A DNA stretch of 64,000 bases, taken from Amphiura filiformis (Eukaryota > Echinodermata > Ophiuroidea > Amphilepidida > Amphiuridae). Positions 1-30,567 of this stretch are shown in pieces. Made by a program: the position numbers and the translations under genes. The notes beneath the pieces are model-generated. The model saw only the letters and a list, made by a program, of their open reading frames with translations, was not told the DNA's origin and did not search any database. The stretch is from NCBI RefSeq assembly GCF_039555335.1, contig NC_092639.1:32458353-32522352 (forward strand). The letters run 5' to 3'. The stretch's first letter is position 1. Every line of letters starts with the position of its first letter.

Positions 1-784
1 TATCAGGTTATGAGTATGACGGTAGGCCTATTTATAGCAGATATCAGTGTGTGGGAATAAAAGTATCTTCAGTAGATAGTAGGTGTGATTATAAAACTAT
101 CTAGAGTAGATAGCAAAGTGTGAGTATAAAAGTATATTCAGAAGATAGCAGGGTATGAGTGTAAAACGAGCTAAAGTAGATGGCAGGGTGTGCGTATAAA
201 AGAATCTTAAGTAGATGACAAGGTGTCCGTGCAAATATATCTACAGTAGACAGCAAATCATGAGTATAAAAATATGTAGAGTAGATAGCAGGGTGTGAGT
301 ACAAAACGTTCTAAAGTAGATTTCAAAGGGTGAATAAAAAAAAAAACAAGTAAAAATCGGGGTGTGAGTATTTATAGTAGATATTAGAGTTTGAGAATAA
401 AAGTATCTTCAGTAGTAGGCTGTGAGTATAAAAGTATCTTCAGTAGATTAGAGGGCGTAATTATAAAACTATCTAGAGTAGATAGCAAAGTTTGAGTATA
501 AATGTATCTTCAGTAGATAGCAGGGTATGAGTGTAAAACGAGCTAAAGTATAGATGACAGGGTATGCGTATTAAAGAATCTGATGTAGATGACATATCTA
601 GAGTAGATATCAGGGTTTGAGAATAAAAGTATCTTCAGTAGATTGCAACATGCAAGTATAAAACTATCTTCAGTAGGTAATAAAGTGTGAGTATCAAACT
701 ATCTATAAAGTTATAGAACCGTGACGCCGAAGCATGAAACACCGATTGCATTAATAAGTAGGCCTACATAATCAAACTGGTGGT

Positions 785-1185
785 GTGATTATTGCGAATA
801 TTCGCAATAATTATTGCGAATATTCGCAATGTTATTGCGAATATTCGCAATAATTATTGCGAATATTCGCAATATTATTGCGAATATTCGCAATGTTATT
901 GCGAATATTCAACCAGCTATCTACTGTTGATAGTTTTATACTCAATTATTATTGCGAATATTCGCAATAATTATTGCGAATATTCGCAATAATTATTGCG
1001 AATATTCGCAATAACATTGCGAATATTCGCAATGTTATTGCGAATATTCGCAATGTTATTGCGAATATTCGCAATATTATTGCGAATATTCGCAATAATT
1101 ATTGCGAATATTCGCAATGTTATTGCGAATATTCGCAATGTTATTGCGAATATTCGCAATAATTATTGCGAATATTCGCAATAAT
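785..1185. repeat. Palindromic 21/22-bp monomer array (block 1)
   Basis: The monomer is the perfect 18-bp palindrome ATTGCGAATATTCGCAAT joined by spacers ATT, GTT or AATT. The array is interrupted at about 908-950 by one inverted piece of the flanking ~35-bp minisatellite and then resumes. Each monomer has two CpG sites, which are largely intact. Confidence 0.95.
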
Positions 1186-2333
1186 AATTGAGTATAAAAC
1201 TATCAACAGTAGATAGCTGGTGCAAAGTGTGAACATAAGACTATCTAGAGTAGATAGTGTGTGAGTAAAAACCTTTCTAAAGTAATAATTATTGCGAATA
1301 TTCGTATGTTATTGCGAATATTCGCAATGTTATTGCGAATATTCGCAATTATTGTGAATATTCGCAATAATTATTGCGAATATTCGCAATAATTATTGCG
1401 AATATTCGCAATAATAATTGAGTATAAAACTATCGACAGTAGATAGCTGGTGCAAAGTGTGAACATAAGACTATCTAGAGTAGATAGTGTGTGAGTAAAA
1501 ACCTTTCTAAAGTAGATAGCAAAGTGTGAATAAAACTATCAACAGTAGATATCAGGTTATGAGTATGACGGTAGGCCTATTTATAGCAGATATCAGTGTG
1601 TGGGAATAAAAGTATCTTCAGTAGATAGTAGGTGTGATTATAAAACTATCTAGAGTAGATAGCAAAGTGTGAGTATAAAAGTATATTCAGAAGATAGCAG
1701 GGTATGAGTGTAAAACGAGCTAAAGTAGATGGCAGGGTGTGCGTATAAAAGAATCTTAAGTAGATGACAAGGTGTCCGTGCAAATATATCTACAGTAGAC
1801 AGCAAATCATGAGTATAAAAATATGTAGAGTAGATAGCAGGGTGTGAGTACAAAACGTTCTAAAGTAGATTTCAAAGGGTGAATAAAACTCCCAACAAGT
1901 AAAAATCGGGGTGTGAGTATTTATAGTAGATATTAGAGTTTGAGAATAAAAGTATCTTCAGTAGTAGGCTGTGAGTATAAAAGTATCTTCAGTAGATTAG
2001 AGGGCGTAATTATAAAACTATCTAGAGTAGATAGCAAAGTTTGAGTATAAATGTATCTTCAGTAGATAGCAGGGTATGAGTGTAAAACGAGCTAAAGTAT
2101 AGATGACAGGGTATGCGTATTAAAGAATCTGATGTAGATGACATATCTAGAGTAGATATCAGGGTTTGAGAATAAAAGTATCTTCAGTAGATTGCAACAT
2201 GCAAGTATAAAACTATCTTCAGTAGGTAATAAAGTGTGAGTATCAAACTATCTATAAAGTTATAGAACCGTGACGCCGAAGCATGAAACACCGATTGCAT
2301 TAATAAGTAGGCCTACATAATCAAACTGGTGGT

Positions 2334-2782
2334 GTGATTATTGCGAATATTCGCAATAATTATTGCGAATATTCGCAATGTTATTGCGAATATTCGCAAT
2401 AATTATTGCGAATATTCGCAATATTATTGCGAATATTCGCAATGTTATTGCGAATATTCAACCAGCTATCTACTGTTGATAGTTTTATACTCAATTATTA
2501 TTGCGAATATTCGCAATAATTATTGCGAATATTCGCAATAATTATTGCGAATATTCGCAATACATTGCGAATATTCGCAATAACATTGCGAATATTCGCA
2601 ATAATTATTGCGAATATTCGCAATAATTATTGCGAATATTCGCAATGTTATTGCGAATATTCGCAATATTATTGCGAATATTCGCAATAATTATTGCGAA
2701 TATTCGCAATGTTATTGCGAATATTCGCCATGTTATTGCGAATATTCGCAATAATTATTGCGAATATTCGCAATAATAATTG
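2334..2782. repeat. Palindromic monomer array (block 2)
   Basis: Same monomer as block 1, carrying the same inverted minisatellite insert (about 2,457-2,499). The interruption therefore predates the duplication of the 1,549-bp unit. Confidence 0.95.
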
Positions 2783-5239
2783 AGTATAAAACTATCAACA
2801 GTAGATAGCTGGTGCAAAGTGTGAACATAAGACTATCTAGAGTAGATAGTGTGTGAGTAAAAACCTTTCTAAAGTAGATAGCAAAGTGTGAATAAAACTA
2901 TCAACAGTAGATATCAGGTTATGAGTATGACGGTAGGCCTATATATAGCAGATATCAGTGTGTGGGAATAAAAGTATCTTCAGTAGATAGTAGGTGTGAT
3001 TATAAAACTATCTAGAGTAGATAGCAAAGTGTGAGTATAAAAGTATATTCAGAAGATAGCAGGGTATGAGTGTAAAACGAGCTAAAGTAGATGGCAGGGT
3101 GTGCGTATAAAAGAATCTTAAGTAGATGACAAGGTGTCCGTGTAAATATATCTACAGTAGACAGCAAATCATGAGTATAAAAATATGTAGAGTAGATAGC
3201 AGGGTGTGAGTACAAAACGTTCTAAAGTAGATTTCAAAGGGTGAATAAAACTCCCAACAAGTAAAAATCGGGGTGTGAGTATTTATAGTAGATATTAGAG
3301 TTTGAGAATAAAAGTATCTTCAGTAGTAGGCTGTGAGTATAAAAGTATCTTCAGTAGATTAGAGGGCGTAATTATAAAACTATCTAGAGTAGATAGCAAA
3401 GTTTGAGTATAAATGTATCTTCAGTAGATAGCAGGGTATGAGTGTAAAACGAGCTAAAGTATAGATGACAGGGTATGCGTATTAAAGAATCTGATGTAGA
3501 TGACATATCTAGAGTAGATATCAGGGTTTGAGAATAAAAGTATCTTCAGTAGATTGCAACATGCAAGTATAAAACTATCTTCAGTAGGTAATAAAGTGTG
3601 AGTATCAAACTATCTATAAAGTTATAGAACCGTGACGCCGAAGCATGAAACACCGATTGCATTAATAAGTAGGCCTACATAATCAAACTGGTGGTGTGAT
3701 TATTGCGAATATTCGCAATGTTATTGCGAATATTCGCAATAATTATTGCAAATATTCGCAATGTTATTGTGAATATTCGCAATGTTATTGCGAATATTCG
3801 CAATGTTATTTGCGAATATTCGCAATGTTATTGCGAATATTCGCAATAATTATTGCGAATATTCGCAATAATTATTGAGTATGAAACTATCGACAGTAGA
3901 TAGCTGGTGCAAAAGTGTGAACATAAAACTATCTACAGTAGATAGTGTGTGAGTAAAAACCTTTCTAAAGTAGATAGCAAAGTGTGAATAAAACTATCAA
4001 CAGTAGATATCAGGTTATGAGTATGACGGTAGGCCTATATATAGCAGATATCAGTGTGTGGGAATAAAAGTATCTTCAGTAGATTGCAACATGCAAGTAT
4101 AAAACTATCTTCAGTAGGTAATAAAGTGTGAGTATCAAACTATCTATAAAGTTATAGAACCGTGACGCCGAAGCATGAAACACCGATTGCATTAATAAGT
4201 AGGCCTACATAATCAAACTGGTGGTGTGATTTTGCGAATATTCGCAATAATTATTGCGAATATTCGCAATGTTATTGCGAATATTCGCAACAATTATTGC
4301 GAATATTCGCAATAATAATTGAGTATAAAACTATCGACAGTAGATAGCTGGTGCAAAGTGTGAACATAAGACTATCTAGAGTAGATAGTGTGTGAGTAAA
4401 AACCTTTCTAAAGTAGATAGCAAAGTGTGAATAAAACTATCAACAGTAGATATCAGGTTATGAGTATGACGGTAGGCCTATATATAGCAGATATCAGTGT
4501 GTGGGAATAAAAGTATCTTCAGTAGATAGTAGGTGTGATTATAAAACTATCTAGAGTAGATAGCAAAGTGTGAGTATAAAAGTATATTCAGAAGATAGCA
4601 GGGTATGAGTGTAAAACGAGCTAAAGTAGATGGCAGGGTGTGCGTATAAAAGAATCTTAAGTAGATGACAAGGTGTCCGTGTAAATATATCTACAGTAGA
4701 CAGCAAATCATGAGTATAAAAATATGTAGAGTAGATAGCAGGGTGTGAGTACAAAACGTTCTAAAGTAGATTTCAAAGGGTGAATAAAACTCCCAACAAG
4801 TAACAATCGGGGTGTGAGTATTTATAGTAGATATTAGAGTTTGAGAATAAAAGTATCTTCAGTAGTAGGCTGTGAGTATAAAAGTATCTTCAGTAGATTA
4901 GAGGGCGTAATTATAAAACTATCTAGAGTAGATAGCAAAGTTTGAGTATAAATGTATCTTCAGTAGATAGCAGGGTATGAGTGTAAAACGAGCTAAAGTA
5001 TAGATGACAGGGTATGCGTATTAAAGAATCTGATGTAGATGACATATCTAGAGTAGATATCAGGGTTTGAGAATAAAAGTATCTTCAGTAGATTGCAACA
5101 TGCAAGTATAAAACTATCTTCAGTAGGTAATAAAGTGTGAGTATCAAACTATCTATAAAGTTATAGAACCGTGACGCCGAAGCATGAAACACCGATTGCA
5201 TTAATAAGTAGGCCTACATAATCAAACTGGTGGTGTGAT

Positions 5240-5605
5240 TATTGCGAATATTCGCAATAATTATTGCGAATATTCACAATATTATTGCGAATATTCGCAA
5301 TGTTATTGCGAATATTCGCAATATTATTGCGAATATTCGCAATGTTATTCCGAATATTCGCAATGTTATTGCGAATATTCGCAATGTTATTGCGAATATT
5401 CGCAATGTTATTGCGAATATTCGCAATAATTATTGCGAATATTCGCAATGTTATTGCGAATATTCGCAATATTATTGCGAATATTCGCAATAATTATTGC
5501 GAATATTCGCAATGTTATTGCGAATATTCGCAATAGTTATTGCGAATATTCGCAATAATTATTGCGAATATTCGCAATAATTATTGCGAATATTCGCAAT
5601 AATAA
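5240..5605. repeat. Palindromic monomer array (long uninterrupted block)
   Basis: About 17 head-to-tail monomers, with occasional single-base variants such as TTCACAAT and TTCCGAAT. The spacer alternates irregularly between GTT, ATT and AATT. Confidence 0.95.
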
Positions 5606-5956
5606 TTGAGTATAAAACTATCGACAGTAGATAGCTGGTGCAAAGTGTGAACATAAGACTATCTAGAGTAGATAGTGTGTGAGTAAAAACCTTTCTAAAG
5701 TAGATAGCAAAGTGTGAATAAAACTATCAACAGTAGATATCAGGTTATGAGTATGACGGTAGGCCTATATATAGCAGATATCAGTGTGGGAATAAAAGTA
5801 TCTTCAGTAGATTGCAACATGCAAGTATAAAACTATCTTCAGTAGGTAATAAAGTGTGAGTATCAAACTATCTATAAAGTTATAGAACCGTGACGCCGAA
5901 GCATGAAACACCGATTGCATTAATAAGTAGGCCTACATAATCAAACTGGTGGTGTG

Positions 5957-6325
5957 ATTATTGCGAATATTCGCAATAATTATTGCGAATATTCGCAATA
6001 ATTATTGCGAATATTCGCAATATTATTGCGAATATTCGCAATGTTATTGCGAATATTCGCAATAATTATTGCGAATATTCGCAATGTTATTGCGAATATT
6101 CGCAATATTATTGCGAATATTCGCAATAATTATTGCGAATATTCGCAATGTTATTGCGATTATTCGCAATGTTATTGCGAATAGTCGCAATAATTATTGC
6201 GAATATTCGCAATATTATTGCGAATATTCGCAATAATTATTGCGAATATTCGCAATGTTATTGCGAATATTCGCAATGTTATTGCGAATATTCGCAATAT
6301 TATTGCGAATATTCGCAATAATAAT
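5957..6325. repeat. Palindromic monomer array
   Basis: About 17 monomers, including variants with a mismatch in the dyad near 6,155-6,190. It directly follows linker copy six. Confidence 0.95.
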
Positions 6326-8460
6326 TGAGTATAAAACTATCGACAGTAGATAGCTGGTGCAAAGTGTGAACATAAGACTATCTAGAGTAGATATTGTGTG
6401 AGTAAAACCTTTCTAAAGTAGATAGCAAAGTGTGAATAAAACTATCAACAGTAGATATCAGGTTATGAGTATGACGGTAGGCCTATATATAGCAGATATC
6501 AGTGTGTGGGAATAAAAGTATCTTCAGTAGATAGTAGGTGTGATTATAAAACTATCTAGAGTAGATAGCAAAGTGTGAGTATAAAAGTATATTCAGAAGA
6601 TAGCAGGGTATGAGTGTAAAACGAGCTAAAGTAGATGGCAGGGTGTGCGTATAAAAGAATCTTAAGTAGATGACAAGGTGTCCGTGTAAATATATCTACA
6701 GTAGACAGCAAATCATGAGTATAAAAATATGTAGAGTAGATAGCAGGGTGTGAGTACAAAACGTTCTAAAGTAGATTTCAAAGGGTGAATAAAACTCCCA
6801 ACAAGTAACAATCGGGGTGTGAGTATTTATAGTAGATATTAGAGTTTGAGAATAAAAGTATCTTCAGTAGTAGGCTGTGAGTATAAAAGTATCTTCAGTA
6901 GATTAGAGGGCGTAATTATAAAACTATCTAGAGTAGATAGCAAAGTTTGAGTATAAATGTATCTTCAGTAGATAGCAGGGTATGAGTGTAAAACGAGCTA
7001 AAGTATAGATGACAGGGTATGCGTATTAAAGAATCTGATGTAGATGACATATATAGAGTAGATATCAGGGTTTGAGAATAAAAGTATCTTCAGTAGATTG
7101 CAACATGCAAGTATAAAACTATCTTCAGTAGGTAATAAAGTGTGAGTATCAAACTATCTATAAAGTTATAGAACCGTGACGCCGAAGCATGAAACACCGA
7201 TTGCATTAATAAGTAGGCCTACATAATCAAACTGGTGGTGTGATTATTGCGAATATTCGCAATGTTATTGCGAATATTTCGCAATAATTATTGCAAATAT
7301 TCGCAATGTTATTGCGAATATTCGCAATGTTATTGCGAATATTCGCAATGTTATTGCGAATATTCGCAATGTTATTGCGAATATTCGCAATACAATTATT
7401 GCGAATATTCGCAATAATTATTGAGTATAAAACTATCGACAGTAGATAGCTGGTGCAAAAGTGTGAACATAAAACTATCTACAGTAGATAGTGTGTGAGT
7501 AAAAACCTTTCTAAAGTAGATAGCAAAGTGTGAATAAAACTATCAACAGTAGATATCAGGTTATGAGTATGATAGTAGGCCTATATAGCAGATATCAGTG
7601 TGTGGGAATAAAAGTATCTTCAGTAGATAGGAGGGTGCGATTATAAAATTATCTAGAGTAGATAGCAAAGTGTGAGTATAAAAGTATATTCAGAAGATAG
7701 CAGGGTATGAGTGTAAAACGAGCTTAAGTAGATCAGGGATGAGTAGATGCATGGCAGGGTGTGCGTATATAAAAGAATCTTAAGTAGATGACAAGGTGTT
7801 AGTGTAAATATATCTACAGTAGACAGCAAAGCGTGCGTATAAAAATATGTAGAGTAGATAGCAGGGTATGAGTACAAAACGTTCTAAAGTAGATTTCAAA
7901 GGGCGAATAAAAACTACCAACAAGTAAAAATCGGGGTGTGAGTATTTATAGTAGATATTAGAGTTTGAAAATAAAAGTATCTTCAGTAGATAGCAGGCTG
8001 TGAGTATAAGCGAAGTTTGAATAAAACTATTTTCAAGTATCTATAGTAGGCCTAGATATCAGAGTGTGAGATTAAATTAGGCTATCTTCAGTAGATATCA
8101 GTGTATGATAATAAAATTATCTACAGTAGATAGCAAAGTGTGAGTATAAACTATCTCCAGTAGATAGCAGGCTTGTGAGAGTAAAACTTCCAAAGTAGAT
8201 AGTAAAGAGTGAATAAAGACTATCAACAGCAGATATCAGGGTGTGAGTATGAAAACCATTTTCAGTAGATACCAGGGTGTAACTACAAAAATGTCTTCAG
8301 TAGATAGCAAAGTGAGAGTATAAAATTATAGATAGTGTGGTCTGAGTAAATCAGATAGCAGGATGTTAATAAAAATAATCTACAGTAGATATCAGGGCGA
8401 AGTATAAAAACTAATAACTATAAATTTATCTACATCAGATAGCAGGATGTGAAAGACAAA

Positions 8461-8745
8461 AAGAAAGATAACGAGAAAGCACTGTTGTGTTTAGGCAAAC
8501 ACGAATATAATATCCGTTATCCCCCCCCCCCTTGCCCTGCCTTCAAACAAAAACTTGATTACCACGATGTGGAAGCCCTTGTTATAAGCTTTCATTTCTT
8601 ATAATTATCTCAAGGTCATAGCACCTCAAATAAAAAAGCGCCCAATTGGACGCCAAGAAAGAAAAGCAAAATGCGTACACATTCCCCTTTAAGGAATTTT
8701 ATATAAGTTTTATATCAAGACGTACGTTCTAAGCCTTTATCTTTG
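8461..8745. repeat. Junction with single inverted 108-bp repeat copy (block B)
   Basis: Holds a C-run at 8,521-8,531. At about 8,560-8,655 lies one copy, in reverse orientation, of the 108-bp repeat that is tandem at 18,850-20,100: TGTGGAAGCCCTTGTTATAA, then the ATAGCACCT word, then GCGCCCAATTGG. The following ACACATTCCCCTTTAAGG matches 18,650-18,672 inverted. No coding signal. Confidence 0.75.
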
Positions 8746-9115
8746 CTAATATAGATAGCTACCAGTACTACACTGTGTCAATAGGTCTAACGTATTTGCT
8801 CTTGACGTACGTTCCAATCCGTTATCATTGCAAATAAAGGTAGCTACCAAAATGCCATCTTTTGCACTGCACTGTGTTAATAGGTCAGACGTATTTGCTA
8901 TTGACGTACGTTCCAATCCGTTATCATTGCAAATACAGGTAGCTACCAAAATACCATCTTTTGCACTACACTGCGCCCGACACTGCGTTCATAGGTCGAA
9001 CGTATTTACTAATGACGTACGTTCCAATCCGTTATCATTGCACATACAGGTAGCTAGCCAAATGCCACCTTTTGCACTACACTGTGTAAATAGGTCGAAC
9101 GTTTTTGCCTTTTAA
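8746..9115 (+). repeat. 99-bp tandem repeat, left copy set 1
   Basis: Unit runs TTGACGTACGTTC, CCGTTATCATTGCAAATA, AGGTAGCTACC, TTTTGCACTACACTG, AATAGGTCGAACG. Unit starts at 8,798 and 8,897 are 99 bp apart; the next, at 9,008, follows after a 12-bp insertion. Because 99 is a multiple of three, long open frames arise on both strands; these are not genes. AACGTACGTT-like and GGTAGCTACC dyads occur in each unit. Confidence 0.9.
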
Positions 9116-9604
9116 AGCCTGTGAACTTTGACCTCTGGGGTTGCGGCTACCATAGGATACATCTGGGGCCATGGGGCAACATTTTACCCAGTATGAACCC
9201 TGAGGGCGCTGTAGTTCTTGAGCTAGAGCTGTTTGAAATTTTACACATATTGGTCCCTGTAGCCCATGACCTTTAACCTCTGGGGTCGGGGCTACCCCAG
9301 GAAATTTCTAGGGGTCATGGGTCATCATTATACCACGTATGAACCCCAAGCCTACTTTAGATCTTGAGAAAAGCTATTGAAATATTTGCAAAATCATTGC
9401 GAATATTCGCAAAGTTATTGCGAATATTCGCAATAACATTGCGAATATTCGCAATAATTATTGCGAATATTCGCAATAATGTATGGGTGGCCGATAGTAA
9501 CAAAACACGCCTAAAATTATACGCCTAACCATGTACGTCCAAGATTGCATCTTGGACGTCCAAAATTTCGCGGCAGACATAAATCGACGAATCACGGGTC
9601 AGAA
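9116..9604 (+). repeat. Composite C unit: spacer, palindrome array, conserved 120-bp block
   Basis: A ~280-bp spacer contains two related stretches (CCTCTGGGGTTGCGGCTACC and CCTCTGGGGTCGGGGCTACC). Palindromic monomers follow at about 9,395-9,480, then a conserved block (GTATGGGTGGCCGATAG through CGCGGCAGACATAAATCGAC) holding the inverted words TCCAAGATGCAATC-type and GGACGTCC. This unit recurs at 10,300-10,845 and, inverted, four times at 14,210-18,630. Confidence 0.85.
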
Positions 9605-10000
9605 ATCTACTGTAGATTCTTTTATACTCACACCATGCAATCTACTGTAGCTCCCTTTATACTCACACCCCGCTATCTATAATGTTATACTCACACTTTC
9701 CGATCTACTGAAGTTACTTTTGTAGTAACACTCTGGTATCTACTGAAAATTGTTTTATACTCACACCTGATATCTACAGTAGATAGTTTTTATTCGCATC
9801 CTGCTATCTATTGTAGATAGTTTTATACTCACTTAAGCAGAGATTGAATAAAAACTTCATCAGTAGATATCAGGGTGTGAGTATGATAGTATCTATAGTT
9901 CTATAGTAGATATCAGAGTGCGAGAATAAAAGTATCTTCAGTTGAAAGCAGGGCGTAATTATAAAACTATCTACAGTAGATCAAAAAGTGTGAGTATCAA
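9605..10000. repeat. Minisatellite with internal orientation switch (left D block)
   Basis: ~35-bp monomers run as TATCTACTGTAGATAGTTTT-ACTCAC up to about 9,832 and then flip to the opposite orientation after ACTCACTTAAGCAGAGATT. The flip point is shared with the right-arm copies (13,940, 14,975, 16,360, 16,660 and 17,805), so it is an ancestral feature of the unit. Confidence 0.8.
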
Positions 10001-10300
10001 ACTATTTGCTATTGACGTACGTTCAAATCCGTTATCATTGCAAATACAGGTAGCTACCAAAATACCATCTTTTGCACTACACTGCGTTAATAGGTTCAAC
10101 GTATTTGTTATTGACGTACGTTCAAATCCGTTATCATTGCAAATAAGGGTAGCTACCAAAATGCCATCTTTTGCACTACACTGCGTTAATAGGTTGAACG
10201 TGTTTACTATTGGCGTACGTTCCAATCCGTTATCATTGCAAATACAGGTACTACCCAATTGCTATCTTTTGCACTACACTGTGTAAATAGGTCGAACGTT
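10001..10300 (+). repeat. 99-bp tandem repeat, left copy set 2
   Basis: Three units starting at 10,008, 10,107 and 10,206, exactly 99 bp apart. The open frames of 114 and 95 residues here are repeat artefacts with the repeat's periodicity. Confidence 0.9.
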
Positions 10301-11125
10301 TTTTGCTTTTTAAGCCTGTGAACTTTTACCTCTGTGGTTGCGGCTACCGTAGGATACATCTAGGGCCATGGGCCAATATTTTATCAAGTATGAACCCTGA
10401 GGGCGCTGTAGTTCTTGAACTAGAGCTGTTTGAAATTTTACACATATTGCTCACTGTAGCCCATGACCTTTAACCTCTGGGGTCAGGACTACCCCAGGAA
10501 ATTTCTAGGGGCATGGGTCATCATTATACCACGTATGGGCCCCTGAGCCTACTTTGATCTTGAGAAAAGCTATTGGAATATTTGCAAAGTTATTGCGAAT
10601 ATTCGCAATAACATTGCGAATATTCGCCATAATTAACGCGAATATTCGCAATAATGTGCGAATATTCGCAATAATTATTGCGAATATTCGCAATAATTAT
10701 TGCGAATATTCGCAATAATGTATGGGTGGCCGATAGCGACAAAACACGCCTAAAATTCTACGCCTAACCATATACGTCCAAGATTGCATCTTGAACCTCC
10801 AATAATTTCGCGGCAGACATAAATCGACGAATCACATGGTCAGAAATCTACTGTAGATAGTTTTATACTCACACTTTGCTATCTACTGTAGATTCTTTTA
10901 TACTCACACCATGCAATCTACTATAGCTCCTTTTATACTCACACCCCGCTATCTATAATCCTATACTCACACTTTCATATCTACTGAAGTTACTTTTGTA
11001 GTAACACTCTGGTATCTACTGAAAATTGTTTTATACTCACACCTGATATCTACAGTAGATAGTTTTTATTCGCATCCTGCTATCTATTGTAGATAGTTTT
11101 ATACTCACTTAAGCAGAGATTTGTG
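10301..11125 (+). repeat. Second left composite C unit plus truncated D minisatellite
   Basis: Spacer to 10,570, palindromic monomers to 10,720 (one reads TTAACGCGAATATTCGC, a mutated dyad), conserved block to 10,845, minisatellite to about 11,125. The minisatellite is cut off shortly after its orientation switch, where the middle domain begins. The period to the preceding unit is about 1,239 bp. Confidence 0.85.
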
Positions 11126-11149
11126 TATAAAAACTACCATCGCATAAAG

Positions 11150-11405
11150 TTCTAGTTCGTCCAATCCCATTTGGTCCAATGCCACTTGATCCATTCCCAC
11201 TTGGTCCAATCCTATTTGGTCCAATCCCACTTCGTCCAATCCAACTAGGGCCATGTCCCACTAGGGTCATGTCCCTCTTGGGTCATGTCCCACTAGGGCC
11301 ATGTCCCACTTGGGTCATGTCCCACTAGGTCCATGTCCCGCTAGGGCCATGTTCCACTAGGGCCACGTCCCACTTAGGCCATGTCACACTTAGGCTATGT
11401 CCCAT
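11150..11405 (+). repeat. 15-bp then 16-bp minisatellite
   Basis: First part (about 11,158-11,248): 15-bp units like GGTCCAATCCCACTT. Second part (about 11,249-11,400): 16-bp units like GGGCCATGTCCCACTA. The two monomers are clearly related, so a one-base change in unit length spread through half the array. Confidence 0.9.
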
Positions 11406-11429
11406 ATGGACCAGTACATACTATTAGGC

Positions 11430-12115: not shown

Positions 12116-12159
12116 TACGCATATCACCTATATTGGTGTCACATTTAAGTAGGGTGGTG

Positions 12160-13640: not shown

Positions 13641-13684
13641 TAGTCCTGTCACGAGAACCACCCAACCCGAGAACCGCGAAATCT

Positions 13685-16600
13685 GGTTGTAGATAATTTT
13701 ATACTCACAACCGTATATCTACTGTTAATAGTTTTTATTCACACTTTACTATCTACTTTAGAAGTTTGATACTCACATTCTGCTATCTACTGCAGATAGT
13801 TTTATAATCGCATCCTGCTTTCTACTGAAGATACTTTTATTTTCGCACTCTGATATCTACTATAGAACTATAGATACTTTCATACTCACACCCTGATATC
13901 TACTGATGAAGTTTTTATTCACACTTTAATCTCTACTTAAGTGAGTATAAAACTATCTACAATAGATAGCAGGATTAGAATAAAAACTATCTACTGTAGA
14001 TATCAGGTGTGAGTATAAAAACAATTTTCAGTAGATACCAGGGTGTTACTTCAAACGTAACTTCAGTAGATAGGAAAGTGTGAGTATAACAATTAACATT
14101 ATAGATAGCGGGGTGTGAGTATAAAAGGAGCTACAGTAGATTGCATGGTGGGAGTATAAAAGAATCTACAGTAGATAGCAAAGTGTGAGTATAAAACTAT
14201 CTACAGTAGATTTCTGACACTGTGATTCGTCGATTTATGTCTGCCGCGAAATTTTGGACGTCCAAGATTGCATCTTGATCAGGCGTATAATTTTAGACGT
14301 GTTTTGTTGCTATCGGCCACCCATACATTATTGCGAATATTCGCAATAATTATTGCGAATATTCGCAATGTTATTGCGAATATTCGCAATGTTATTGCGA
14401 ATATTCGCAATAATTATTGCGAATATTCGCAATAACTTTGCACAATATCTAAAGTAGGCTCGGGGCCCATACTTGGTATAATGATGACCCATGACCCCTA
14501 GAAATTTCCTGGGGTAGCCCCGTGGCCCCAGATGTATCCTATGGTAGCCGCAATCCCATAGGTCAAAGTTCACAGGCTTTAAACGGCAAAAAACGTTCGA
14601 CCTATTTACACAGTGTAGTGCAAAAGGTGGCATTTGGCTAGCTACCTGTATGCATTTGCAATGATAACGGATTGGAACGTACGTCAATAGCAAATACGAG
14701 TCGTACGTTGAACCTATTAACGCTTTGTAGTGTAAAATATGGCATTTTGGTAGCTACCTGTATTTGCAATGATGACGGATTTGAACGTAAGTCAATAGCA
14801 AAGACGTTCGACCTATAAACACAGTATTGTGCAAAAAAGATGGCATTTTGTGTGAGTATAAAAGGAGCTACAGTAGATTGCATGGTGTGAGTATAAAAGA
14901 ATCTACAGTAGATAGCAAAGTGTGAGTATAAAACTATCTACAGTAGATTTCCGACCCTGTCGCACTTTAATCTCTACTTAAGTGAGTATAAAATTACAAT
15001 AGATAGCAGGATGCGAATAAAAACTATCTACTGTAGATATCAGGGGTGAGTATAAAAACAATTTTCAGTAGATACCAGGGTGTTACTTCAAAAGTAACTT
15101 CAGTAGATAGGAAAGTGTGAGTATAACAATTAACATTATAGATAGCGGGGTGTGAGTATAAAAGGAGCTACAGTAGATTGCATGGTGGGAGTATAAAAGA
15201 ATCTACAGTAGATAGCAAAGTGTGAGCATAAAACTATCTACAGTAGATTGCGAATAAAAACTATCTACTGTAGATATCAGGTGTGAGTATAAAAACAATT
15301 TTCAGTAGATACCAGGGTGTTACTTCAAAAGTAACTTCAGTAGATAGGAAAGTGTGAGTATAACAATTAACATTATAGATAGCGGGGTGTGAGTATAAAA
15401 GGAGCTACAGTAGATTGCATGGTGGGAGTATAAAAGAATCTACAGTAGATAGCAAAGTGTGAGTATAAAACTATCTACAGTAGATTTCTGACACTGTGAT
15501 TCGTCGATTTATGTCTGCCGCGAAATTTTTGGACGTCCAAAATTGCATCTTGATCAGGCGTATAATTTTAGACGTGTTTTGTTGCTATCGGCCACCCATA
15601 CATTATTGCGAATATTCGCAATAATTATTGCGAATATTCGCAATGTTATTGCGAATATTCGCAATAATTATTGCGAATATTCGCAATGTTATTGCGAATA
15701 TTCGCAATAACTTTGCACAATATCTAAAGTAGGCTCGGGGCCCATACTTGGTATAATGATGGCCCATGACCCTAGAAATTTCCTGGGGTAGCCCCGACGG
15801 CAGAGGTCAAAGGTCATGGGCTACAGGGACCAATATGTGTAAAATTTCAAACAGCTCTAGCTCAAGAACCACAGCGCCCTCAGGGTTCATACTTGGTAAA
15901 ATGTTGGCCCATGGCCCCAGATGTATCCTATGGTAGCTGCAACCCCAGAGGTCAAAGTTCAAAGGCTTTAAAAGGCAAAAAACGTTCGACCTATTTACAC
16001 AGTGTAGTGCAAAAGGTGGCATTTGGCTAGCTACCTGTATTTGCAATGATAACGGATTGGAACGTACGTCAATAGCAAATACGAGTCGTACGTTGAACCT
16101 ATTAACGCACTGTAGTGTAAAAGATGGCATTTTGGTAGCTACCTGTATTTGCAATGATGACGGATTTGAACGTACGTCAATAGCAAAGACGTTCGACCTA
16201 TTAACACAGTATAGTGCAAAAGATGGCATTTTGCGTGAGTATAAAAGGAGCTACAGTAGATTGCATGGTGTGAGTATAAAAGAATCTACAGTAGATAGCA
16301 AAGTGTGAGTATAAAACTATCTACAGTAGATTTCCGACCCTGTCGCACTTTAATCTCTACTTAAGTGAGTATAAATTACAATAGATAGCAGGATGCGAAT
16401 AAAAACTATCTACTGTAGATATCAGGTGTGAGTATAAAACAATTTTCAGTAGATACCAGGGTGTTACTTCAAAAGTAACTTCAGTAGATAGGAAAGTGTG
16501 AGTATAACAATTAACATTATAGATAGCGGGGTGTGAGTATAAAAGGAGCTACAGTAGATTGCATGGTGGGAGTATAAAAGAATCTACAGTAGATAGCAAA

Positions 16601-18630
16601 GTGTGAGCATAAAACTATCTACAGTAGATTTCCGACCCTGTCGCACTTTAATCTCTACTTAAGTGAGTATAAATTACAATAGATAGCAGGATGCGAATAA
16701 AAACTATCTACTGTAGATATCAGGTGTGAGTAAAAAACAATTTTCAGTAGATACCAGGGTGTTACTTCAAAAGTAACTTCAGTAGATAGGAAAGTGTGAG
16801 TATAACAATTAACATTATAGATAGCGGGGTGTGAGTATAAAAGGAGCTACAGTAGATTGCATGGTGGGAGTATAAAAGAATCTACAGTAGATAGCAAAGT
16901 GTGAGTATAAAACTATCTACAGTAGATTTCTGACACTGTGATTCGTCGATTTATGTCTGCCGCGAAATTTTTGGACGTCCAAGATTGCATCTTGATCAGG
17001 CGTATAATTTTAAACGTGTTTTGTTGCTATCGGCCACCCATACATTATTGCGAATATTCGCAATAATTATTGCGAATATTCGCAATGTTCATGCGAATAT
17101 TCGCAATAATTATTGCGAATATTCGCAATGTTATTGCGAATATTCGCAATAACTTTGCACAATATCTAAAGTAGGCTCGGGGCCCATACTTGGTATAATG
17201 ATGGCCCATGATCCTAGAAATTTCCTGGGGTAGCCCCGACGGCAGAGGTCAAAGGTCATGGGCTACAGGGACCAATATGTGTAAAATTTCAAACAGCTCT
17301 AGCTCAAGAACCACAGCGCCCTCAGGGTTCATACTTGGTAAAATGTTGGCCCATGGCCCCAGATGTATCCTATGGTAGCTGCAACCCCAGAGGTCAAAGT
17401 TCACAGGCTTTAAAAGGCAAAAAACGTTCGACCTATTTACACAGTGTGTGCAAAAGGTGGCATTTGGCTAGCTACCTGTATTTGCAATGATAACGGATTG
17501 GAACGTACGTCAATATCAAATACGAGTCGTACGTTGAACCTATTAACGCATTGTAGTGTAAAAGATGGCATTTTGGTAGCTACCTGTATTTGCAATGATG
17601 ACGGATTTGAACGTACGTCAATAGCAAAGACGTTCGACCTATTAACACAGTATAGTGCAAAAGATGGCATTTTGCGTGAGTATAAAAGGAGCTACAGTAG
17701 ATTGCATGGTGTGAGTATAAAAGAATCTACAGTAGATAGCAAAGTGTGAGTATAAAACTATCTACAGTAGATTTCCGACCCTGTCGCACTTTAATCTCTA
17801 CTTAAGTGAGTATAAAATTACAATAGATAGCAGGATGCGAATAAAAACTATCTACTGTAGTTATCAGGTGTGAGTATAAAAACAATTTTCAGTAGATACC
17901 AGAGTGTTACTACAAAAGTAACTTCAGTAGATCGGAAAGTGTGAGTATAACATTATAGATAGCGGGGTGTGAGTATAAAAGGAGCTACAGTAGATTGCAT
18001 GGTGGGAGTATAAAAGAATTTACAGTAGATAGCAAAGTGTGAGTATAAAACTATCTACAGTATATTTCTGACACTGTGATTCGTCGATTTATGTCTGCCG
18101 CGAAATTTTTGGACGTCCAAGATTGCATCTTGATCAGGCGTATAATTTAGACGTGTTTTGTTGCTATCGGCCACCCATACATTATTGCGAATACATTATT
18201 GCGAATATTCGCAATAATTATTGCGAATATTCGCAATGTTATTGCGAATATTCGCAATAACTTTGCACAATATCTAAAGTAGGCTCGGGGCCCATACTTG
18301 GAATAATGATGGCCCATGACCCTAGCAATTTCCTTGGGGAGCCCCGACGCCAAAAGTAAACGTACATGGGCTACAGGGACCAATATGTGTAAAATTTCAA
18401 ACAGCTCTAGCTCAAGAACCACAGCGCCCTCAGGGTTCATACTTGGTACAATGATGGCCCATGGCCCCAGATGTATCCTATGGTAGCTGCAACCCCAAAG
18501 GTCAAAGTTCAAAAGCTTTAAAAGGCAAAATAGGTACGACCTATTAACACAGTGTAACGCAATAGGTAGCATTTCGTTAGCTACATGGGTTTACAATGAT
18601 AACGGCCTGAATCGTACGTCAAGGAAATTG
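13685..18630 (-). repeat. Right inner array: four composite C/D units, inverted relative to the left
   Basis: Each unit, read on the plus strand, is minisatellite, conserved block (about 14,210, 15,480, 16,923 and 18,061), palindromic array (14,330-14,445; 15,602-15,712; 17,043-17,155; 18,182-18,263), spacer, then 99-bp repeats (about 14,590-14,855; 15,975-16,235; 17,415-17,675; 18,525-18,625). Unit spacings are about 1,270, 1,445 and 1,140 bp, differing mainly in the amount of minisatellite. Blocks at 15,240-15,480 and 16,630-16,925 are local duplications of the minisatellite portion. The fourth 99-bp set is the most diverged. Confidence 0.85.
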
Positions 18631-18649
18631 ATCACTTGACAAAAACTCC

Positions 18650-20130
18650 CTTAAAGGGAATGTGTAGGCATTTTGATATTGGTGCCTTGGACCACCTCAA
18701 AAGGTTGTCATTGTGGGACATGGGGTGTGGTTGGTTAATGGGTGTTAGGAGGGTAAAGGGTTGTCAAGGTTTGTAAGGGGGTGAGCAAGGGGGTGGTCAC
18801 CAGTTTTTTAGATTTGGCGCCCAATTGGGCACTTTAAAAAAATTTTAAGTGCTATTAGGATGATACTTATATCAATTAAAGCTTATAAAAAGGGCTTCAA
18901 CATGATGGTTACCAACTTTGGTTTTGGCGCCCAATTGGGCGCTTTTAAATTTTTTAGGTGCTATGAGGATGATACTTATATCAATTAAAGTTTATAACAA
19001 GGGCTTCCAAATGGTGGTCACCAATTGTTAGATTTGGTGCCCAATTGGGCGCCTTTTATTTTAGGTGCTATGAGGATGATACTTATATCAATTAAAGTTT
19101 ATAACAAGGGCTTCCACATGGTGGTCACCAACTGTTGGATTTAACGCCCAATTGGGCGCTTTTTATTTTAGGTGCTATGAGGATGATTCTTATATCGATT
19201 AAAGTTTATAACAAGGGCTTTCACATGGTGGTCACTAACTGTTGGATTTTGCGCCCAATTGGGCGCTTTTTTATTTTAGGTGCTATGAGGATGATACTTA
19301 TATCAATTAAAGTTTATAACAAGGGCTTCCACATGGTGGTCACTAGCCCTGGACCCAGTGCCGTGACCAGTACCCGCTGGAAGTAGTCCTCTGAAGTGGG
19401 GTTACCAATTTTTGGAATTGGCGCCCAATTTGGCGTTTTTTTTATTCTAAGAGCTATGAGGATGATTCTGATATCAATTAAAGCTTTTAACAAGGGCTTT
19501 TACATGATGGTCACCAAGTTTTCGTTTGTGAGCATAGGGGGGCCACGGGCATATATATTCGTGTTTGCTCAAACACAGCTGTGACATCTAGTTGCTTTTC
19601 TTTCCCTGGACAACATCCCGGGACAACATCAACGGGTTGCCATGGTGGGTCAAGGGGTGTGGTTGCTTTAAGGGTCTTAGGGTGGGTTAAGGGTTGTCAC
19701 GGTGGGCAAGAGATGACATGATGGTCACCAATTTGTGACATAATCAAGGTGAATGAGTCGGATGTCATTAATATTGTTTTTGAGATATTGGCAAAAACAG
19801 TGTTCCAATTCATTTGTTTTATATTTTTTCAGCCATTGGTAAATTGTTCATAGCTCAGTAACCAGATGTCTGATTTTGATGGGGTTTGCACCAAAATGTA
19901 GCATTCATAAACTGCCAGAAAATGATGTAAAAATAAAACTTCTAATTGAAAATTGCCGACATGTGACTCATTCACCTTGATCATATCACATTTTTTGATT
20001 TGGCTCCCAATGGGGCGCTCTTTTATTGTAGTTGCTGTGAGGATGATACTTATATCAATAAAAGCTTATAACAAGGGATCTCACATGGTGGTCACCAACT
20101 TTTGGATTTGGCGCCCAATTATTTGGCGCT
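18650..20130 (+). repeat. 108-bp tandem repeat with GCGCCCAATTGGGCGC palindrome (block B')
   Basis: The shared word AGGATGATACTTATATCAAT starts near 18,857, 18,966, 19,073, 19,180, 19,288, 19,459 and 20,040: five units of 107-109 bp and two more after insertions. Each unit carries the 16-bp perfect palindrome GCGCCCAATTGGGCGC or a variant, then TGGTGGTCACCA. A second sequence (GGGTGTGGTTG, TTAGGGTGGGTTAAGGGTTG type) occurs at 18,697-18,770 and again at 19,636-19,710. No gene. Confidence 0.85.
19735..19989. mobile_element. MITE inserted in the 108-bp repeat
   Basis: About 255 bp bounded by inverted ends: ATCAAGGTGAATGAGTC on the left and GACTCATTCACCTTGAT on the right. It interrupts a 108-bp repeat unit. 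No coding capacity. Confidence 0.7.
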
Positions 20131-20974
20131 TTTTGTTCACGGAGTGAACATTTTCCCACTTGAACCCATATCTCATATGCACAGTTTATCCCTTTATATA
20201 CACTGTGTGTTAAATAGCTATTGTAGCCCAACAACCCTGTGGTTAAGAGGCTAGGAAATAATTCCTAATGTCTCATACCCAGGTTTGTATCCGGCTTTAT
20301 CTAATCCTGCCCCACATGATAAGGACTTTTTAGCACATCTTATCTTGTATTGAGACAATGGCAGCCAAGACTATTTTTTTGCTTTTTTCTAAGCATGTTC
20401 ACTATTGGATTGAGCCATCACATGATTATAATAGGCTTTACTGATTGGTGGGTAAGGTCAATGCTATTGTTTATTTTGTGATAAGGCTGAGCATATTACT
20501 GCATGAAAAATACACTACTATTTTGATACAGGCGATTTACTCAATTCCTTCCAACTGACAAAATCTAGTTCCTGTTATCTACCCAGTGGTGTTTGCTTAT
20601 CATAATTGGATCCCTAATAATTATTGGGCCAAGGTTATTATCTGTATGGTATATTTATTGAATTTCAATAGGCCTATGATAGTGTAAGTGATTTGAAAGT
20701 TTCTATTTCAATGAGTTTCTTGCTGGATGGAGAGTTATATAAGCTAGAGTCAGGATGTAGGTATCATTATGCGTCAAATCACTAATTTATTGTAAGATCA
20801 GTGCAGAGTAGGTTAGATATTAAAATGAAAAGTTAGAACAAATTACTATGACACCTGATCCGTGAACTGTGTCTTTTTGAAAGACTCTTCTTGTTTATTT
20901 TAGGTGCTATGGTCATGAGATATATATTGAAAAGACAGAAAGACAGAGCTTCTCATTGATACTTTGCAAATGTT
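20131..20974. other. Non-mirrored insertion between blocks B' and A'
   Basis: About 840 bp of ordinary AT-rich sequence with no counterpart in the left arm. It holds a possible tRNA-derived stretch at about 20,222-20,300 (TGTGGTTAAGAGG as an A-box-like word, GGTTTGTATCC as a B-box-like word at 20,282-20,292), which could be an old SINE. No open frame that looks like a gene. Confidence 0.5.
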
Positions 20975-23900
20975 TCTATAACTTCATAGATAGCTTTATA
21001 CTCACACTTTGTTATCTACTGAAGATAGTTTTATACTTGCATGTTGCAATCTACTGAAGATACTTTTATTCTCAAACCCTGACATCTACTCTAGATATGT
21101 CATCTACATCAGATTCTTTGATACGCATACCCTGCCATCTACTTTAGCTCGTTTTACACTCATACCCTGCTATCTACTGAAGATACATTCATACTCAAAC
21201 TTTGCTATCTACTCTAGATAGTTTTATAATTACGCCCTCCAATCTACTGAAGATACTTTTATACTCACAGCCTACTACTGAAGATACTTTTATTCTCAAA
21301 CTCTAATATCTACTATAAATACTCACACCCCGATTTTTTCTTGGGAGTTTTTATTCACCCTTTGAAATCTACTTTGGAACGTTTTGTACTCACACCCTGC
21401 TATCTACTCTACATATTTTTATACTTACGCTTTCCTGTCTACTGTAGATATATATACACTGACACCTTATCATCTACTTAAGATTCTTTTATACGCACAC
21501 CCTGCCATCTACTTTAGCTCGTTTTACACTCATACCCTACTATCTTCTGAATATACTTTTATACTCACACTTTGCTATCTACTGTAGATAGTTTTATATC
21601 ACACTCTCCTATCTACTGAAGATACTTTTATTCCCACACACTGGTATCTGCTATATATAGGCCTACTGTCATACTCATAACCTGATATCTACTGTTGATA
21701 GTTTTATTCATACTTTGCTATCTACTTTAGAAAGGTTTTTACTCACACACTATCTACTGTAGATAGTTTTATGTTCACACTTTGCACCAGCTATCTACTG
21801 TCGATAGTTTTATACTCAATAATTATTGCGAATATTCGCAATATTATTGCGAATATTCGCAATAATATTGCGAATATTCGCAATAATTATTGCGAATATT
21901 CGCAATAACATTGCGAATATTCGCAATAACATTGCGAATATTCGCAATAACATTGCAATAACATTGCAATAACATTGCGAATTGCGAATATTCGCAATAA
22001 TTATTGCGAATATTCGCAATAATCACACCACCAGTTTGATTATGTAGGCCTACTTATTAATGCAATCGGTGTTTCATGCTTCGGCGTCACGGTTCTATAA
22101 CTTTATAGATAGTTTGATACTCACACTTTATTACCTACTGAAGATAGTTTTATACTTGCATGTTGCAATCTACTGAAGATACTTTTATTCTCATACCCTG
22201 ATATCTACTCTAGATATGTCATCTACATCAGATTCTTTAATACGCATACCTGTCATCTACTTTAGCTCGTTTTACACTCATACCCTGCTATCTACTGAAG
22301 ATACATTTATACTCAAACTTTGCTATCTACTCTAGATAGTTTTATAATTACGCCCTCTAATCTACTGAAGATACTTTTATACTCACAACCAACTACTGAA
22401 GATACTTTTATTCTGAAACTCTAATATCTACTATAAATACTCACACCCCGATTTTTACTTGTTGGGAGTTTTATTCACCCTTTGAAATCTACTTTAGAAC
22501 GTTTTGTACTCACACCCTGCTATCTACTCTACATATTTTTATACTCATGCTTTGCTGTCTACTGTAGATATATTTACACAGACACCTTGTTATCTACTTA
22601 AGATTCTTTTATACGCACACCCTGCCATCTACTTTAGCTCGTTTTACACTCATACCCTGCTATCTTCTGAATATACTTTTATACTCACACTTTGCTATCT
22701 ACTCTAGATAGTTTTATAATCACACCTACTATCTACTGAAGATACTTTTATTCCCACACACTGATATCTGCTATATATATGCCTACTGTCATACTTATAA
22801 CCTGATATCTACTGTTGATAGTTTTATTCATACTTTGCTATCTACTTTAGAAAGGTTTTTACTCACACACTATCTACTCTAGATAGTGGTATGTTCACAC
22901 TTTGCACCAGCTATCTACTGTCGATAGTTTTATACTCAATAATTATTGCGAATATTCGCAATAATTATTGCGAATATTCGCAATAACATTGCGAATATTC
23001 GCAATAACATTGCGAATATTCGCAATAATATTGCGAATATTCGCATAATTATTGCGAATATTCGCAATAATATTGCGAATATTCGCAATAATTATTGCGA
23101 ATATTCGCAATAACATTGCGAATATTCACAATAACATTGCGAATATTCGCAATAATATTGCGAATATTCGCAATAATTATTGCGAATATTCGCAATAATT
23201 ATTGCGAATATTCGCAATAATCACACCACCAGTTTGATTATGTAGGCCTACTTATTAATGCAATCGGTGTTTCATGCTTCGGCGTCACGGTTCTATAACT
23301 TTATAGATAGTTTGATACTCACACTTTATTACCTACTGGAGATAGTTTTATACTTGCATGTTGCAATCTACTGAAGATACTTTTATTCTCAAACCCTGAT
23401 ATCTACTCTAGATATGTCATCTACATCAGATTCTTTAATACGCATACCCTGTCATCTACTTTAGCTCGTTTTACACTCATACCCTGCTATCTACTGAAGA
23501 TACATTTATACTCAAACTTTGCTATCTACTCTAGATAGTTTTATAATTACGCCCTCTAATCTACTGAAGATACTTTTATACTCACAGCCAACTACTGAAG
23601 ATACTTTTATTCTCAAACTCTAATATCTACTATAAATACTCACACCCCGATTTTTACTTGTTGGGAGTTTTATTCACCCTTTGAAATCTACTTTAGAACG
23701 TTTTGTACTCACACCCTGCTATCTACTCTACATATTTTTATACTCATGCTTTGCTGTCTACTGTAGATATATTTACACAGACACCTTGTCATCTACTTAA
23801 GATTCTTTTATACGCACACCCTGCCATCTACTTTAGCTCGTTTTACACTCATACCCTGCTATCTTCTGAATATACTTTTATACTCACACTTTGCTATCTA

Positions 23901-24440
23901 CTCTAGATAGTTTTATAATCACACCTACTATCTACTGAAGATACTTTTATTCCCACACACTGATATGTGCTATATATAGGCCTACTGTCATACTTATAAC
24001 CTGATATCTACTGTTGATAGTTTTATTCATACTTTGCTATCTACTTTAGAAAGGTTTTTACTCACACACTATCTTGGGTGGCTTACGCTCCAGTAATTTC
24101 AGATGATTGAGCTCAGTAATACATCAAAGAATGTCTTCCAATTCATGAAAACAAATAGATAATCAGCTTATCGGATTAAAAGCTTATTGCGAATATTCGC
24201 AATAACATTGCGAATATTCGCAATAACATTGCGAATATTCGCAATAATATTGCGAATATTCGCAATAATTATTGCGAATATTCGCAATAACATTGCGAAT
24301 ATTCGCAATAACATTGCGAATATTCGCAATAATTATTGCGAATATTCGCAATAACATTGCGAATATTCGCAATAACATTGCGAATATTCGCAATAACATT
24401 GCGAATATTCGCAATAATTATTGCGAATATTCGCAATAAT
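20975..24440 (-). repeat. Right outer array A', inverted relative to 1-8,460
   Basis: It starts in a truncated linker (TTTCTATAACTTCATAGATAG), then minisatellite, palindromic arrays (about 21,820-22,022; 22,940-23,222; 24,187-24,440) and full inverted linkers (about 22,022-22,105 and 23,222-23,305). It is shorter than the left arm (two full units against seven). The last unit is broken by a 114-bp foreign segment at 24,073-24,186, after which only palindromic monomers follow. Confidence 0.9.
24073..24186 (-). repeat. 114-bp exact inverted copy of 27,796-27,909
   Basis: From CTTGGGTGGCTTACGCTCC to GATTAAAAGCTTA the sequence is base-for-base the reverse complement of 27,796-27,909 by my reading. 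It sits between minisatellite and a palindromic array and replaces the linker-side minisatellite seen in sister copies. Satellite on both sides suggests that this is the acceptor site and 27.8 kb the donor. Confidence 0.85.
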
Positions 24441-24446
24441 ATTTGA

Positions 24447-25365: not shown

Positions 25366-25499
25366 GTAAGCAGAGCTATGGTGTACTGTATTTATATTGT
25401 ATTTATTTGAATCTTCAGTATTGCTTTCCATTGGCCTCGTTTTATGTGATCGGGACATATTGAGACATTCCGGGGTTCACCCTACTCTTTTCAAAACTA

Positions 25500-27795: not shown

Positions 27796-27909
27796 TAAGC
27801 TTTTAATCCGATAAGCTGATTATCTATTTGTTTTCATGAATTGGAAGACATTCTTTGATGTATTACTGAGCTCAATCATCTGAAATTACTGGAGCGTAAG
27901 CCACCCAAG
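27796..27909 (+). repeat. Probable donor copy of the 114-bp inverted duplicate
   Basis: Single-copy-looking intronic sequence of the WSC/sushi gene. Its exact reverse complement sits inside the satellite at 24,073-24,186. No gene or transposon ends are visible at its borders. Confidence 0.8.
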
Positions 27910-30379: not shown

Positions 30380-30567
30380 GTAAAGTGTAAAATAGAAAAT
30401 GCTATTCAGAACTGCATCTACGTGCAGAATAAATAGCCTCGGGACACAAGGGAATGTGTTTTTGAAAATTAGATTAGAGAAAAAATATACAAACAAAGTA
30501 ATGTAAAATATCTTGAATCGAATTTATCCAAACTATCAAAACTAATTTTCTTATTTATTTTTTACAG

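Follow-up and report, generated by a model that had tools for sequence, protein, structure and literature searches.

The first 24 kb of the analyzed DNA of the ophiuroid Amphiura filiformis (64,000 nucleotides, below called the window; NCBI RefSeq assembly GCF_039555335.1, contig NC_092639.1, positions 32,458,353 to 32,522,352 of the forward strand) are taken up by a satellite complex whose two arms, at positions 1–11,135 and 13,660–24,443, are oppositely oriented in every strand-specific module that we probed (the 35-bp minisatellite A, the 81-bp spacer G, the 107-bp unit D, the ACACATTCCC word, the 99-bp unit C, the spacers F and E, and the linkers of the B arrays). This mirror is real, and the part worth following is that the arms are of unequal age along their length, with an old innermost unit in each of them. 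Our favored, if still tentative, reading is that of a compound satellite macro-dyad beside a gene, which arose by inverted duplication and was then shaped by unit turnover within each arm, renewal of the outer part, and repair of a break. Judged from the sequence, a single old inverted duplication is insufficient because the parts of the arms differ greatly in their degree of likeness, and the satellites appear to have been renewed later, most of all in the outer zone.

The plan of the complex was built from a tandem-repeat scan, a self-comparison, and strand-specific probes, and it is dominated by two higher-order repeats (HORs). HOR-1 consists of an A tract (the 35-bp minisatellite), the G spacer, and a palindromic 21/22-bp B array, while HOR-2 combines C units, an F spacer, a B array, an E spacer, and an A tract in reversed orientation. 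On the left, HOR-1 (1–8,450, plus strand, 7 G copies) extends past base 1 and ends inward with the A tract L7 (7,424–8,450), which lacks a G spacer and is degenerate in its second half. It is followed by a single D unit with an adjoining CAAACACGAATATA stretch (8,460–8,656, plus strand), by the ACACATTCCC word (called K; at 8,677, plus strand) with a first degenerate C unit (8,662–8,797), and by 2 HOR-2 units (8,793–11,135, plus strand, delimited by probes and unit comparison) in which the minisatellite switches orientation (9,825–10,003). Beyond an unmirrored center (11,136–13,660) made of a 15/16-bp minisatellite, a 584-bp purine run, and degenerate unique DNA, the right arm starts with the reversed switch, and 4 HOR-2 units inverted relative to the left arm (13,690–18,622, minus strand) lead to the ACACATTCCC word (18,665, minus strand). 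The D-unit block (18,680–20,137, minus strand; D units from 18,792) holds 7 near-full and one partial D units plus a diverged duplicate (19,621–20,137 to 18,689–19,167, 64.5%). After 0.83 kb of mostly unmatched DNA comes inverted HOR-1 (20,966–24,073, minus strand), with its innermost copy R0 (20,966–21,816), the copies R1 and R2, and 2 G spacers. A 114-bp scar (H; 24,073–24,186, minus strand) and a last B array (24,184–24,443) that adjoins a T run and unique DNA form the right edge. As the window opens at a base within an array, part of the left arm lies outside it. Within each arm, A and B switch polarity jointly between HOR-1 and HOR-2, so that there are 3 dyad levels: the unit, the arm, and the whole.

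A first-pass annotation made from the sequence alone had described 4 repeat classes in the order A-B-C-D on the left and D-C-B-A inverted on the right, and this order and orientation are borne out by strand-specific probes, linkers, and junctions, which all flip between the arms. The G probe matched 7 times on the plus strand at left and twice on the minus strand at right, D once on plus (8,567–8,656) and 9 times on minus (18,792–20,927; 2 of these partial), C 7 times on plus and 10 times on minus, full E twice on plus and 4 times on minus, and F twice on plus at left and in 4 minus-strand copies at right. The opposite-strand matches were just 4 short ones within E, which is itself palindromic there. 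Linkers of the A minisatellite with up to 2 mismatches were found on plus and minus strands in numbers of 83 and 0 (1–8,450), 3 and 11 (8,700–11,140), 42 and 3 (13,600–18,700), and 0 and 40 (20,900–24,073), with the minority-strand counts due to the mirrored orientation switch. Among the B linkers, which the annotation had not mentioned, TGTTA versus TAACA occurred 32 to 2 in the outer left arm and 0 to 13 in the outer right arm with the end array (Fisher p 7e-10), and 0 to 2 versus 6 to 0 in HOR-2 (p 0.036); these p values are overstated because linkers within one array share descent and are not independent. TATTA versus TAATA linkers showed 11 to 0 in the outer left and 1 to 5 in the outer right arm.

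Outside the main arrays, the junctions are mirrored as well: the orientation switch at 9,825–10,003 matches 13,948–13,763 at 88.7%, the D junction at 8,460–8,656 matches 19,603–19,418 at 70.9%, and the K junction at 8,662–8,797 matches 18,680–18,528 at 68.8%. The annotation was right to call both the switch and the ACACATTCCC word mirrored, just as its non-mirrored middle (at about 11.14–13.66 kb) and its right edge near 24,440 (now placed at 24,443) hold up. By our own count, 4 blocks would fall into exactly mirrored order and orientation with a chance of 1 in 384, and chance clustering is rejected given the mirrored strand-specific modules and mirrored junctions.

The symmetry has clear limits. 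The proposed continuous antidiagonal of a self dot-plot is broken: in arms of 11,135 and 10,783 bp, the best colinear inverted chain consists of 8 pieces with 5,161 identical bases, whereas the best direct one holds 2,917. Unit numbers differ between left and right for G (7 versus 2) and for the C/F/E units (2 versus 4). What had been described as a single mirrored 108-bp unit (presumably our 107-bp D unit) does lie on opposite strands in the two arms, but one copy on the left faces 7 near-full copies on the right. In 20,138–20,965, nothing matches the left arm except about 50 bp that resemble D (20,890–20,938). Identity between the arms is uneven and ranges from 69% to 100%.

The inner parts of the arms are clearly diverged. 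HOR-2 units L1 and L2 are 88.4–93.2% identical to the right HOR-2 units R1–R4 (6.8–11.6% different), while R1–R3 are 96.9–98.4% identical to each other, L1 and L2 share 92.5%, and R4 shares 93.4–93.8% with R1–R3. R4 retains alleles of L1 and L2 that are altered in R1–R3 (e.g., GTAGTAACACTC versus GAAGTAACACCC), so the amplification of R1–R3 in the right arm probably postdates the duplication. A palindrome in the E spacer carries, read in arm orientation, the 3-base loop TGC in both left HOR-2 units and GCA in all 4 right ones. This loop inversion is fixed by arm (e.g., at 9,480–9,602 and 18,068–18,181) and points to one loop flip with no arm-to-arm exchange at E afterwards.

For HOR-1, "outer copies" below excludes the short variants L3s and L5s, and L7 and R0 form the "inner" pair. 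The 5 full left and 2 right outer copies differ from each other at 8/770 to 17/702 sites (1.0–2.4%), comparable figures within arms being 0.2–1.3% on the left and 0.9% on the right (R1 and R2). For the inner pair, the comparison was restricted to positions 1–558 of R0, which align reliably in all copies; a whole-tract figure for L7 and R0 (118/848, 13.9%) was set aside given the poor alignment of the latter half of L7. Over the reliable half, L7 is 3.4–4.9% different from the outer left copies (themselves 0.2–1.9% apart), R0 is 5.0–5.6% different from R1 and R2 (1.0% apart), and L7 and R0 differ at 29/556 positions (5.2%), compared to 1.4–3.7% for outer left-right pairs (p 0.012 against the 2.3% of L4 and R1). 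In either arm, the most diverged full-length HOR-1 copy is thus the innermost one. Furthermore, L7 and R0 have alleles in common that the majority of outer copies lacks: 7 over the reliable half, where 5,000 permutations gave 0.5 on average and never more than 5, and 11 across the whole tract (1.8 expected, maximum 7; reached in 0 of 5,000 permutations). Old and united by rare alleles, the 2 copies look like leftovers of a single old layer that was once present in both arms.

Non-satellite junctions are 11–31% different between the arms, with the orientation switch at 11.3% (gaps included). The idea of one ancestral inverted duplication therefore stands as the plan of the locus, upheld by the mirrored junctions and the rare alleles of L7 and R0, but falls short as the whole story given the uneven likeness along the arms. 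The G spacer is identical in all 9 copies, yet we do not claim any special conservation of it (0 of 81 variable columns versus 21 of 703 in the A tract among 7 full copies, p 0.15; 0.098 for G plus 70 more bases, not significant).

The right edge carries a second kind of record. Positions 24,073–24,186 are an exact inverted copy of 27,796–27,909 (114 of 114 bases, divergence upper bound 3.2%), the likely template on the plus strand 3.6 kb away, and this scar took the place of some 67 bp from the outermost A tract and its B border. The neighboring copy R1 displays the pre-scar state, with 67 bp between CTATCT and TTATTGCG, and the start of the replaced tract is retained in all 9 other HOR-1 copies with a visible start (R1 included) but absent from R2. 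On this comparison, it is the satellite side that has changed and not the template. The scar junctions match the template by CT (2 bp) on one side and by TTA (3 bp) on the other. Microhomology-mediated template switching leaves scars of this type and may have been the pathway here. An imperfect inverted repeat (27,667–27,779 and 27,916–28,038; score 68, with 46 as the best of 200 shuffles) contains the template in its loop, and this 113/123-bp repeat spanning 27,667–28,038 resembles a miniature inverted-repeat transposable element. At this place, a break at the right edge was repaired from a neighboring template; the arrival of the complex is not explained by the scar.

Several of the repeat units are themselves palindromic. 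Exact palindromic stems in the consensus sequences measure 8 bp for A (equaled by 1 of 2,000 shuffles), 11 bp for B (11 of 2,000), and 8 bp for D (5 of 800). The notion of an exceptional hairpin is supported for a B-array stretch, which folds far beyond shuffled sequences (z -15.7, 0 of 200), and C and E stretches are intermediate (z about -1.5). In the center, the consensus sequences of the 2 minisatellites contain no significant palindrome in the shuffle test. The uninterrupted 584-bp purine run at 11,502–12,085 is mostly AGAAG and is possibly triplex-forming, fork-stalling DNA, as purine runs of such kind stall replication.

These observations can be joined into a sequence of events. A block of HOR-1, D, K, and HOR-2 would have been duplicated in inverted orientation around the unmirrored center, as indicated by the mirrored junctions. 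The arms would then have gained and lost units independently, because copy numbers differ and alleles are arm-specific, leaving 4 HOR-2 units and 7 near-full D units on the right and at least 7 HOR-1 units on the left. After the duplication, the satellites would have been renewed, most strongly in outer HOR-1, while the innermost HOR-1 copies and HOR-2 stayed older; the likeliest mechanism would be arm-to-arm copying via gene conversion or break-induced replication, on one chromatid or between sister chromatids. Finally, the arms break, and the right edge bears the 114-bp inverted patch at the loss of about 67 bp of satellite. The palindromic A, B, and D units are the likely cause of both breakage and amplification. 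A passive account is the likeliest: palindromic satellites duplicate in inverted orientation, grow, break, and get repaired, and sequence of the outer zone is copied from arm to arm. The duplication and the scar can be read off the sequence, and arm-to-arm copying is an inference. It is on the unlikely side that the arms renew each other from the outside in by copying chiefly over the outer zone, leaving the innermost units as old remnants in arrays that, by permitting such exchange, also break and get patched.

Several points weigh against this series of events. The step along HOR-1 is modest, as the 5.2% between L7 and R0 is not significantly above the 3.7% of the worst outer pair (L0 and R1; p 0.29), and the short variants L3s and L5s sit inside the young zone despite being 6.0–12.5% different from the full outer copies (3/266 from each other). 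The D and K junctions are the most diverged of all (29–31%, gaps included) though they lie between HOR-1 and HOR-2, so that age does not drop smoothly outwards; ordinary DNA may instead record the true age of the duplication, with satellites homogenized to various degrees. The junction of HOR-1 and D is not mirrored base for base, as A stops at about 8,450 on the left and a truncated G spacer lies at 20,966 on the right. C units contain no significant palindrome (equaled by 327 of 800 shuffles), single A, D, and G stretches fold no better than shuffles and thus do not share in the expected hairpin, and microhomologies of 2–3 bp are weak evidence by themselves. Arm-to-arm copying would also compete with a genome-wide homogenization of HOR-1 and is not separated from it.

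This competing explanation assumes the same old inverted duplication and ascribes the youth of outer HOR-1 to genome-wide homogenization or re-seeding without any special exchange between the arms, which we consider rather improbable. It would account for HOR-1 being alike throughout, within the left arm, between R1 and R2, and from left to right (see the figures above), for a left array that runs on past the window, for the decay of array-edge copies like L7 and R0, and for non-satellite junctions being far more diverged. What it explains less readily is that the old unit is innermost in both arms, that L7 and R0 have rare alleles in common, and that R1 and R2 are just 2 copies with unique DNA outside them. 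The complex could also be misassembled, with 2 separate satellite loci or 2 haplotypes joined head to head, and satellite arrays are frequently misassembled; here, the left edge lies inside an array and the 584-bp purine run could have broken the assembly. However, we regard this as very unlikely, since the junction anchors keep their mirrored order and the innermost copies share rare alleles. A missed adapter or simple fold-back artefact would yield identical arms and is disfavored by arms that are unlike in unit number and sequence.

A transposon origin has to be weighed as well. TU of sea urchins and FB of Drosophila are foldback elements with long inverted arms that contain tandem repeats, and the complex might be a non-autonomous relative (FB/TU/Tetris-like) whose terminal inverted repeats exceed 10 kb and whose transposase is encoded elsewhere. 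Such an origin is possible but appears clearly unlikely to us. The layout would fit, with long inverted arms that hold tandem repeats and flank a middle that is both unmirrored and non-coding, and the excerpts that represent the cited papers here and below describe that Tetris elements seed satellites (PMC4079207) and that the arms of Galileo also differ in repeat number (PMC3573991). According to these, Tetris has terminal inverted repeats of up to 1,735 bp, a target-site duplication of 8–10 bp, and a non-coding middle (PMC4079207), and the inverted arms of Galileo reach about 1.26 kb (PMC3573991), so that they share the layout but, with arms of about 1–2 kb, are several times shorter than what we see here. 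In our complex, the inverted tandem-repeat arms are broken and the left end lies beyond the window. Arms of a single age, which is our own expectation rather than a published criterion, are not found (1.0–2.4% for outer HOR-1, 5.2% for the inner pair, 6.8–11.6% for HOR-2), although converted arms could mimic this pattern. No Pfam domain above cut-off was detected in 29 open reading frames (ORFs) scanned inside the complex (best sub-threshold E-values 0.068 to 0.12), which speaks against a transposase there, an optional feature of foldback elements that non-autonomous copies lack, and led us to reject a single transposon with a coding center. The scan covered 16 of the 20 center ORFs of at least 55 amino acids (the other 4 being further frames of the AGAAG run), all 12 in 18.6–20.98 kb, and one in HOR-2. 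From the H patch, only a repair of the right edge at this place follows. Altogether, the likeness of the complex to known palindromic satellite DNA outweighs the signs of a transposon.

By working plan, the closest kind is that of the TmSat1/TmSat2 satellite macro-dyads of the beetle genus Tribolium, reported in 2026 for Tribolium madens as dyads at 3 scales over tens of kilobases (PMC13081366). In both systems, satellite subarrays that measure several kb to tens of kb (as much as 75 kb in Tribolium) are inverted, short dyads occur within units, and units are inverted at an intermediate level too (PMC13081366). Here, kilobase-sized inverted subarrays surround the inversion site and dyads are found in the A, B, and D units. 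T. madens has diverged units at the inversion point itself (PMC13081366), whereas in our complex HOR-2, L7, and R0 are diverged and the center does not belong to these satellite families. Furthermore, the Tribolium arrays descend from one 110-bp progenitor and form multi-megabase putative centromeres (PMC13081366), whereas the A. filiformis complex nests at least 4 unrelated units, has 2.5 kb of unmirrored DNA in its middle, and lies about 0.6 kb from an exon. As for a location in (peri)centromeric megabase arrays as in Tribolium, the complex has its right end at 24,443 with a WSC-domain exon from about 25,024, and its left side lies outside the window. Age layering and a templated scar are seen here, and we met no mention of either for Tribolium in the excerpted parts of PMC13081366. 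Searching the literature for "macro-dyad" together with "satellite DNA" gave, beyond that paper, a reference-list mention only.

Human Y palindromes have arms that are kept alike by arm-to-arm gene conversion. They share with the complex that arms are in places more alike than their age suggests, but here the likeness is mainly in the outer satellite part, the inner part is diverged, and the arms yielded no gene. HINEs (non-autonomous Helentrons) have satellite-like central repeats, subterminal inverted repeats, and a 3' palindrome, and, being mobile, they disperse short tandem arrays in a marine invertebrate (excerpts of PMC7492417). No such element was delimited here, and no search was made for subterminal repeats. 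Patterns for the B dimer, F, A, and D had no match in viral contigs, and a 20-base B pattern matched 4 bacterial records among genome contigs as isolated 20-mers, which we take as chance. Five repeat words had no match in the literature text searched, and the echinoderm and sea urchin satellite and TU literature gave no title or abstract start describing this structure among the matches listed. No paper was found for the TU element term.

Beyond the complex, the window reads as animal DNA by its domains. An ORF at 25,017–25,463 encodes a WSC domain (Pfam E-value 5.5e-12) whose exon, delimited by eye, has its acceptor at about 25,023 and its donor at about 25,367, thus starting about 0.6 kb from the edge of the complex. 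It is flanked by an inverted pair of sequences like GGCACTTAGACGCTTCCGTA (24,468–24,489 and 27,078–27,102), one of them immediately following the terminal T run of the complex. Further away, Pfam finds a sushi domain in an ORF at 29,995–30,390 and a reverse transcriptase at 33,931–34,728 (minus strand), presumably of a long interspersed nuclear element. A GIY-YIG stretch below the Pfam cut-off lies in an ORF at 51,863–52,855 (minus strand), which we take to be Penelope-like. A perfect 243-bp inverted repeat (51,782–52,024 and 52,835–53,077, 100%) surrounds this ORF, and 51,782–53,077 may be a recently inserted Penelope element that carries part of itself in inverted form. A dispersed repeat of about 175 bp occurs in inverted orientation at 28,256–28,430 and 37,822–37,657 (85% identical), and a short telomere-like GGGTTAGGTTAG array lies near the window end (63,398–63,441). 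The word TAGGCCTA occurs 9 times in 24.5–64 kb, where base composition predicts 0.45 occurrences, and this excess is familiar from echinoderm genomes. Neither Rfam at gathering threshold nor a tRNA scan found anything in the window. Short tandem repeats with palindromic units (CGAGATAATTATCTCG; TTGGGTAAAATTTTACCCAA) are also present at 29,731–29,788, 53,598–53,685, and 53,784–53,830. Among 8 flank consensus sequences chosen out of 17 flank rows of the tandem-repeat scan, 3 have stems that were equaled by at most 39 of 2,000 shuffles, and in this genome palindromic units may have an advantage in tandem growth.

Large mirror-image satellite arrays raise the questions of why they exist and of what maintains the likeness of their arms, and the excerpted text on Tribolium leaves the function of macro-dyads unresolved (PMC13081366). 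The locus described here is a macro-dyad made of unrelated satellites near an exon, and it carries internal clocks in the form of mirrored junctions, arm-specific alleles, and a scar of known template. These permit asking at one place whether a single duplication or repeated arm-to-arm copying has shaped such a structure. Should the complex turn out to be mobile, it would exceed Tetris and Galileo severalfold in arm length. If renewal from the outside in were true, satellite homogenization would be driven by palindrome pairing and not by unequal crossing-over along one array.

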